A stretch of 64,000 bases of DNA, taken from contig NZ_FOKW01000003.1 of assembly GCF_900112205.1 (NCBI RefSeq), positions 434,001 to 498,000 of the forward strand. Reading direction: 5' to 3'. Below, one piece after another: positions 55,799-56,821 of the stretch. Under the pieces are notes generated by a model. It was not told the origin of the DNA, searched no databases, and was given only the letters and a program-made list of their open reading frames with translations. Both the position numbers and the translations under genes were made by a program. Every line of letters begins with the position of its first letter. The stretch's first letter is position 1. Origin of the DNA: Natronobacterium haloterrestre (GTDB lineage Archaea; Halobacteriota; Halobacteria; Halobacteriales; Natrialbaceae).

Positions 55799-55918
55799 GT
55801 CCCTGTCCTCTCTTCTTTCTCTTCATCTCATCATCTAGTTTCTAGCTTCTAGATACTCTCTAGAGAGACTAGTTAAGCGAGAAGAGTAGCAGAAGTGTGG
55901 AGAGTGGGGAGAAGTGTG
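55799..55918. other. Asymmetric tract with five CTAG sites
   Basis: The plus strand is almost all pyrimidine from 55799 to about 55850, then passes through the palindrome CTCTCTAGAGAG (55856-55867) and becomes almost all purine up to 55918. Five CTAG tetramers lie at 55835, 55842, 55849, 55860 and 55869; CTAG is strongly avoided in haloarchaeal genomes. No gene overlaps it. It could be a remnant of mobile DNA or a strand-asymmetric structural element beside the origin. Confidence 0.6.
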
Positions 55919-55923
55919 AAGTA

Positions 55924-56320
55924 CCTCGGGGACAAGCCCCGAGGCTTCACCGTTTTGCCCATGTCGTCCAGAAACGGACGGATAGGCGCAGGCGAATTTA
56001 ATTCCCCTCGACCTTCTTCTCTCGAAGTCGGCTGGAATTAACACCCGAACACTCGCTGTGTCCGTGAGGGTCGGTCGCTCCACCACGACCCGACAACACC
56101 CGTCGCACCACGTCAAGGACGCGGGTTTTGAGAGGTGTCGCATTCCTCGCAACTGCGCGCAGTTGCTTCGGATTACGGTCTTTAATCCACGTCGCAACTG
56201 TACTCGTTAATACGGTGGAATGCGTCATATAGCTTACGCGATTCACCCTCGGGGTCAAGTGGTTCGAGACGCTTCGCGTCTCGTCATCACGGAAGACAAG
56301 TCTTCCGTACGACCCCGAGG
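55924..56320 (-). mobile_element. Palindrome-rich element, probably a PATE (IS200/IS605-derived MITE)
   Basis: One end is a perfect hairpin at 55924-55944 (8-base arms CCTCGGGG/CCCCGAGG, 5-base loop). The other end is a three-way junction: outer 10-base arms at 56247-56256 and 56311-56320 enclose two perfect hairpins at 56265-56283 (8 base pairs) and 56289-56308 (9 base pairs). An 18-base perfect palindrome lies inside at 56149-56166. The outer arms of both end structures share CCTCGGGG. Short frames on the minus strand resemble decayed coding sequence but no transposase is recognisable. PATEs, described from haloarchaea, have palindromic ends related to IS605 elements; assignment is by this likeness. 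Confidence 0.5.
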
Positions 56321-56468
56321 CACTCTCGCTGTATCTCTGTAGAGATCGGTGTTACCGATAGTGGAAATCGTGAAAGAAGGAAGAAGGGTGAAAAAGGGAG
56401 GACTCGGGAGGAAGAGACGAACTATGGCCTCTCGAGACCGTGGGTTCGCTGTCCTGGGTCCCGTGGAT

Positions 56469-56497
56469 GGGGCACACACCTCCCTCGCGTTTGTAAC
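56469..56497 (-). repeat. ORB repeat 1 (outer left)
   Basis: On the minus strand it reads GTTACAAACGCGAGGGAGGT followed by GTGTGCCCC. It has the same core and orientation as ORB 2 and is separated from it by 28 bases, so the two form the left half-array of the origin. Confidence 0.8.
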
Positions 56498-56650: not shown

Positions 56651-56795
56651 CAAACGGCCGGTTCGAGACCCCTCGTTCGATCGAGGGACCTAGTTTTGTG
56701 GTCGAACGAGCCTGGATTCTATTCCGAGACGCGATTTCGGTCAGTTCTTCGAACCGGATCTCGTTTCCCCGGCCCCGTCGATCCCGATTTCGTCC

Positions 56796-56821
56796 GTTAC
56801 ATACGCGAGGGGGGTGTCGGC
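56796..56821 (+). repeat. ORB repeat 4 (right)
   Basis: Plus-strand copy reading GTTACATACGCGAGGGGGGT then GTCGGC. It continues the right half-array, 146 bases beyond ORB 3, and has the same orientation as ORB 3, pointing away from the unwinding element. It is the closest match to the solitary site at 2514-2541. Confidence 0.8.

Follow-up and report, generated by a model that had tools for sequence, protein, structure and literature searches.

The PATEs of Haloquadratum walsbyi have palindromes near their ends, as IS605 elements do, and lack terminal inverted repeats; they contain no transposase gene, make no target duplication and use a fixed terminal oligonucleotide as target (Dyall-Smith et al. 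2011, PMC3119063). SMR-A, a repeat of about 110 bp in Haloquadratum, is inserted in the palindromes of PATEs and IS605 elements and has been proposed to inactivate them (PMC3119063). The sotRNA families have been described as omega-RNAs (PMC12558985), and a PATE different from the one treated here has been reported to be transcribed (PMC10544981).

The element studied here lies in a stretch of 64,000 nucleotides from Natronobacterium haloterrestre, called the window below. It shares with the H. walsbyi PATEs the palindromes, the lack of terminal inverted repeats, target duplication and transposase gene, and the fixed target (PMC3119063), but differs from them in being linked to the defined ends of TnpA- and TnpB-bearing elements and to an omega-RNA-like structure. 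Bacterial REP/BIME repeats with RAYT transposases are similar in that hairpin repeats are linked to Y1 transposases, whereas the present element is larger and has a separate left end, RNA and right end. The most probable explanation of the locus as a whole, and one that we hold to be likely, is a PATE that carries an omega-RNA-like guide RNA and has an inserted 53-nt double-hairpin unit.

Extent, ends and mobility of the element

The element is 423 bp long (55916-56338) and is read on the minus strand, with the left end at 56338, the right end at 55916 and the insertion 3' of the pentanucleotide TCTAC (GTAGA on the plus strand; 56339-56343), which is its predicted TAM. The bounds come from comparison with a congener, G081, where the orthologous origin region is without the element and represents the empty site. 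There ...GAGAGGT is joined directly to GTGGAGATCGGTGTTACC, and in the window ...GAGAAGT is followed by the 423 bp and then by GTAGAGATCGGTGTTACC; there is no target duplication, and the TCCAC of the empty site is one base apart from TCTAC. A second full-length copy in the same genome is 98% identical and has other flanks on both sides; we infer from matching pieces that it is interrupted by another IS and joined over the ends of contigs C11 and C9.

Some match was found in 113 of 125 genomes of the family, and copies are numerous in other haloarchaea. Plasmids with a match come from Natronorubrum (N. bangense), Natrarchaeobaculum (N. sulfurireducens), Natrinema and other genera; at one of them an annotated Natrialbaceae tnpB turned out to be a neighbouring gene. 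The phage collection that was searched gave no match, and the PATE of virus HRTV-DL1 was not tied to this PATE family. The 26 full copies that were extracted have constant inner ends and differing outer flanks, save possibly at two related loci. TCTAC is exact in 24 of them. As the extraction pattern demanded a GTAGA-like end, it contributes by itself to the constancy seen there, but neither to the sudden change of flank nor to the empty site. The 423 bp contain no transposase gene, and no tnpA or tnpB match was found between the ends in the loci inspected.

The first-pass annotation had suggested a PATE related to IS200/IS605, and this is borne out by the empty site, the scattered copies with different flanks, the fixed 5-nt target that the insertion adjoins without duplicating it, and near-terminal palindromes that recur at tnpA/tnpB elements of the IS605 kind (L167-L169). 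The element is thus a PATE, that is, a non-autonomous IS200/IS605 element. Target sites like TTAC or TCAA had been expected, and TCTAC was found instead. The same annotation had held that strict conservation at this locus and a lack of further copies would point to a host element; its proposed search of haloarchaeal genomes gave the second copy and the many others, and the congener has an empty site.

Its four stems, 18-base palindrome and shared arm could all be located. They are an 8-bp stem (55924-55931/55937-55944), a 10-bp closing stem (56247-56256/56311-56320), a 9-bp stem (56289-56297/56300-56308), a second 8-bp stem read from sequence and fold (56265-56272/56276-56283), and an internal perfect palindrome of 18 bases (56149-56166, without strand) that is present in many copies, not in all. 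The arm common to the end structures is CCTCGGGG/CCCCGAGG. The interval 55924-56320, marked as the element, was correct for the stems and too short for the mobile unit, and the target lies outside it. The palindromes are real and far above chance: the RNA fold of 55900-56345 (446 nt) has a z of -6.3 and that of the three-way junction (56220-56325) a z of -6.0, with no shuffle as good in either case. At the left end the near-terminal palindrome (56247-56320, minus strand) has its outer stem of 10 bp opened by the 53-nt unit; it has the plain form in L049, L051 and L057. The right end is a hairpin with a terminal TACTTCAC (55916-55950, minus strand) and resembles the tnpB right ends in L147-L149 and L167. 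A plus-strand reading, in which the three-way junction would be a tnpB right end, was dropped because the tnpB elements place the right end at 55916 and orient the element on the minus strand.

Shorter forms also occur. Five or six copies of a mini-element with the 53-nt unit are spread over six contigs of G082, which suggests that terminal-only forms are mobile. Another terminal-only mini-element with the unit, of 102 bp (L005, G000:C12:232229-232327), stands directly after a gene and provides its stop codon, TGA, with the element end; by our reading the end of the protein looks like that of topoisomerase VI subunit A.

Cognate elements and the RNA of the interior

L167, from genome G118, is a complete IS605 element whose left end is that of the PATE, including the three-way junction, and directly adjoins a divergent Y1 tnpA at its 3' end; after this gene come tnpB and a right-end hairpin of the same kind. 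The Pfam matches of its proteins are PF01797 (E 3.9e-38) and PF07282 (E 4.7e-17). Both ends are the same in L167-L169, and TnpA with these ends is present in G118 and G095. An active TnpA had been named as something to look for, and in the own genome none with these ends was seen; its three TnpA genes are different ones, the nearest 44% identical. The cognate TnpB subfamily is represented there by truncated fragments only. The present activity of this copy is therefore doubtful.

By the right end lies a structured RNA region of 228 nt (55916-56143, minus strand), which covariation, RF02657 and our model R3 relate to the omega-RNA of TnpB. When the right-end 228 nt of 24 copies were aligned, 16 of 61 pairs had compensatory double changes and 97.5% of the cells were paired. 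None of 500 shuffles was as good, although relatedness may inflate this test, and pairing drops to 38-48% with slid partners. A number of the pairs that never vary are G-U when read on the minus strand, so that the structure is strand-specific; counts over 27 elements from the whole class were 30 double-change pairs with 315 G-U cells for the minus strand and 21 with 143 for the plus strand.

Rfam found nothing at the gathering threshold over the whole window. With an E-value threshold, RF02657 (sot2652) matches 56046-56143 on the minus strand (E 8.7e-5) with 29.8 bits, under the gathering cut-off of 61, and even the right end of the tnpB-linked L167 stays below it (43.1 bits, E 2.3e-8). The 5' motif, the fold and the right-end hairpin align with this family, and the strand is the same relative to the right end, but the present RNA has no tnpB reading frame and its middle part is unalignable to the model. 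In the reciprocal test, R3 was built from the 5' motif of the PATE alone and searched against both strands of 35 loci, 110 kb in total. The top five rows (E 1.9e-5 to 4.4e-4) fall at four separate places, as L027 and L032 overlap, and each of these coincides, on the sense strand, with the 3' end of a tnpB from a single subfamily, the cognate one, which is where a motif homologous to omega-RNA belongs. Model R2, made from the PATE RNA core and leaving out the 5' motif, missed the tnpB 3' ends; among 292 haloarchaeal genomes it placed the PATE RNA in 63, and among 77 genera in 37. No tnpB stands between the ends in the 30 RNA loci inspected, and none was seen beside partial right-end copies. Judged from these alignments and models, the PATE appears to carry a relative of omega-RNA without tnpB. 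A functional RNA had been considered earlier for the three-way junction; the kind was right, since the RNA covaries, and the place was wrong, for it is on the minus strand at the opposite end. A divergent match to the PATE RNA (L176, G000:C20:268775-268996) adjoins a nearly symmetric copy of the 53-nt unit.

The double-hairpin unit in the left end

The unit (56260-56312, minus strand) reads TCGT-hpA-TGATGA-hpB-AACCA over 53 nt and scores 75.2 bits with model R1. Hairpin A has 9 bp and a 2-nt loop (56289-56308, minus strand), hairpin B 8 bp and a 3-nt loop (56265-56283, minus strand). In alike elements the left-end palindrome either is plain (CCTCGGGG-TCAAG-CCCCGAGG) and lacks the unit, or contains 53 nt that open it and form two hairpins. 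By this comparison, what makes the three-way junction is a unit in its own right that was inserted into the palindrome loop of the left end. Double changes are seen in 11 of its 22 pairs, closing stem included, and in none of 500 shuffles to the same extent, in sequences that had been chosen for having stems and are thus biased towards pairing.

The unit was found in 257 of 292 haloarchaeal genomes. About half of 103 unit sites, taken as the best-scoring matches and not as a random sample, have flanks that form a palindrome of 7 bp or more; with the flanks shuffled the figure is 0.8%. Other sites are inside tnpA, tnpB or larger multi-hairpin arrays. Wherever an empty form was available for comparison, a G precedes and a C follows the point of insertion. 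The two element copies of the own genome, at different sites, have identical units. Since the element with the unit is found at two sites, and tnpA-bearing elements have it as well, transposition is seemingly not blocked by it, and the unit apparently leaves both outer stem and mobility intact.

By description the unit is like SMR-A (HqIRS42, 43, 55), being a small palindromic repeat that is inserted, with no target duplication, in palindromes near the ends of PATEs and IS605 elements. Its length of 53-55 nt does not agree with the about 110 bp of SMR-A; larger multi-hairpin forms exist. It differs further in being a defined double hairpin found throughout the class, and in that the element apparently still moved after gaining it. 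The analysis defines a double-hairpin repeat whose invasion of IS605 end palindromes extends over the whole class, and the data on it speak against such insertions inactivating the element.

Some sites of the unit deserve mention by themselves. In L168 (G095:C2), L254 (G085:C6), L272 and L273 it is at the same site inside tnpA, and two of the four have GGATCA for the central TGATCA, which avoids an in-frame stop. In seven genomes (L174, L212, L213, L215, L234, L235, L249) it stands between a conserved GGCTGTG and CACACAGCC, near a different tnpB. Larger arrays that contain the unit among at least four hairpins, and look as though one hairpin had been nested in another, are found in L178, L180 and L183 (G000:C20:328222, C11:84044 and C10:164893).

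Proposed mechanism and alternatives

The protein-less element would be moved as single-stranded DNA by a Y1 TnpA acting in trans. Its minus-strand RNA by the right end is related to the omega-RNA that overlaps the tnpB 3' end in full elements, and transcription through the right end would add a guide derived from the flank, predicted from TnpB systems to be ACTTCTCCCCACTCTCCACA (55896-55915, minus strand). By analogy with those systems, a TnpB in trans may use the PATE RNA and cut TCTAC followed by the guide (TCTAC-ACTTCTCCCCACTCTC), which is the empty site, and such cutting could favour retention of the element. The three-way junction arose when a small palindromic repeat like SMR-A entered the loop of the left-end palindrome.

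It could also be that the interior descends from omega-RNA and no longer works with TnpB, having another role or having lost its function recently, and that TnpA alone moves the element. The truncation of all cognate TnpBs in the own genome would fit this, as would the difference that R2 brings out between the PATE core and the tnpB-linked omega-RNAs and the 30 loci without tnpB between the ends, but compensatory changes over many genera, together with a right end that does not vary, point to a lasting RNA function, and we regard this course as unlikely. For the unit, the opposite history would be that it is the ancestral form of the left-end palindrome and has been deleted repeatedly. On the tree of the remaining element its state changes about eight times, at least three of them forced by strong branches and most forks being weak, and the tree does not tell gains from losses, so that the changes can be read either way. 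The unit is however also found within tnpA, within tnpB and in further palindromes that have no relation to these ends, as well as in a right end whose close relative has the plain form, which makes repeated deletion quite improbable.

A host element that serves the neighbouring origin, for instance by forming a cruciform by the ORB repeats, might be suspected from the position alone. The first ORB-like repeat starts at 56469, about 130 bp to the right of the element and its target, and an orc1/cdc6-like ORF has the element 685 bp upstream of it. The first-pass annotation had given 150 bases and called the place notable; the nearness stands and the significance probably does not, because G081 keeps the ORB-like repeats of its orthologous origin without the element. 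With unrelated flanks around the copies elsewhere, such a host function is already contradicted and hardly credible, and the element is probably next to the origin by chance.

If the PATE with its guide RNA and inserted unit is taken further, a family of haloarchaeal PATEs found throughout the class might be stand-alone guide-RNA transposons that exploit both TnpA and TnpB from other elements. Each insertion would then create a new guide directed at its own empty site, and the 53-nt repeat would colonise the end hairpins without stopping the transposons. We put this forward tentatively, as somewhat less than an even chance. Haloarchaeal PATEs would gain a likely content, an omega-RNA without tnpB and with a guide of its own, and this content may explain reports of strongly transcribed PATEs. 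Non-autonomous IS605 elements that bear guide RNAs may, reportedly, already have been noted in bacteria in work on Geobacillus TnpB from 2023. Whether TnpB acts in trans for non-autonomous elements is made a directly testable question in tractable archaea.

The origin region has two further features. G081 (L081), compared with the window at 56790-56797, has a further insertion of its own, located between its origin repeats and orc1, where an overlap of 8 bp resembles a target duplication, and a perfect 23-bp inverted repeat at 56530-56552/56624-56646, ORB-like in sequence, is kept in the congeners.
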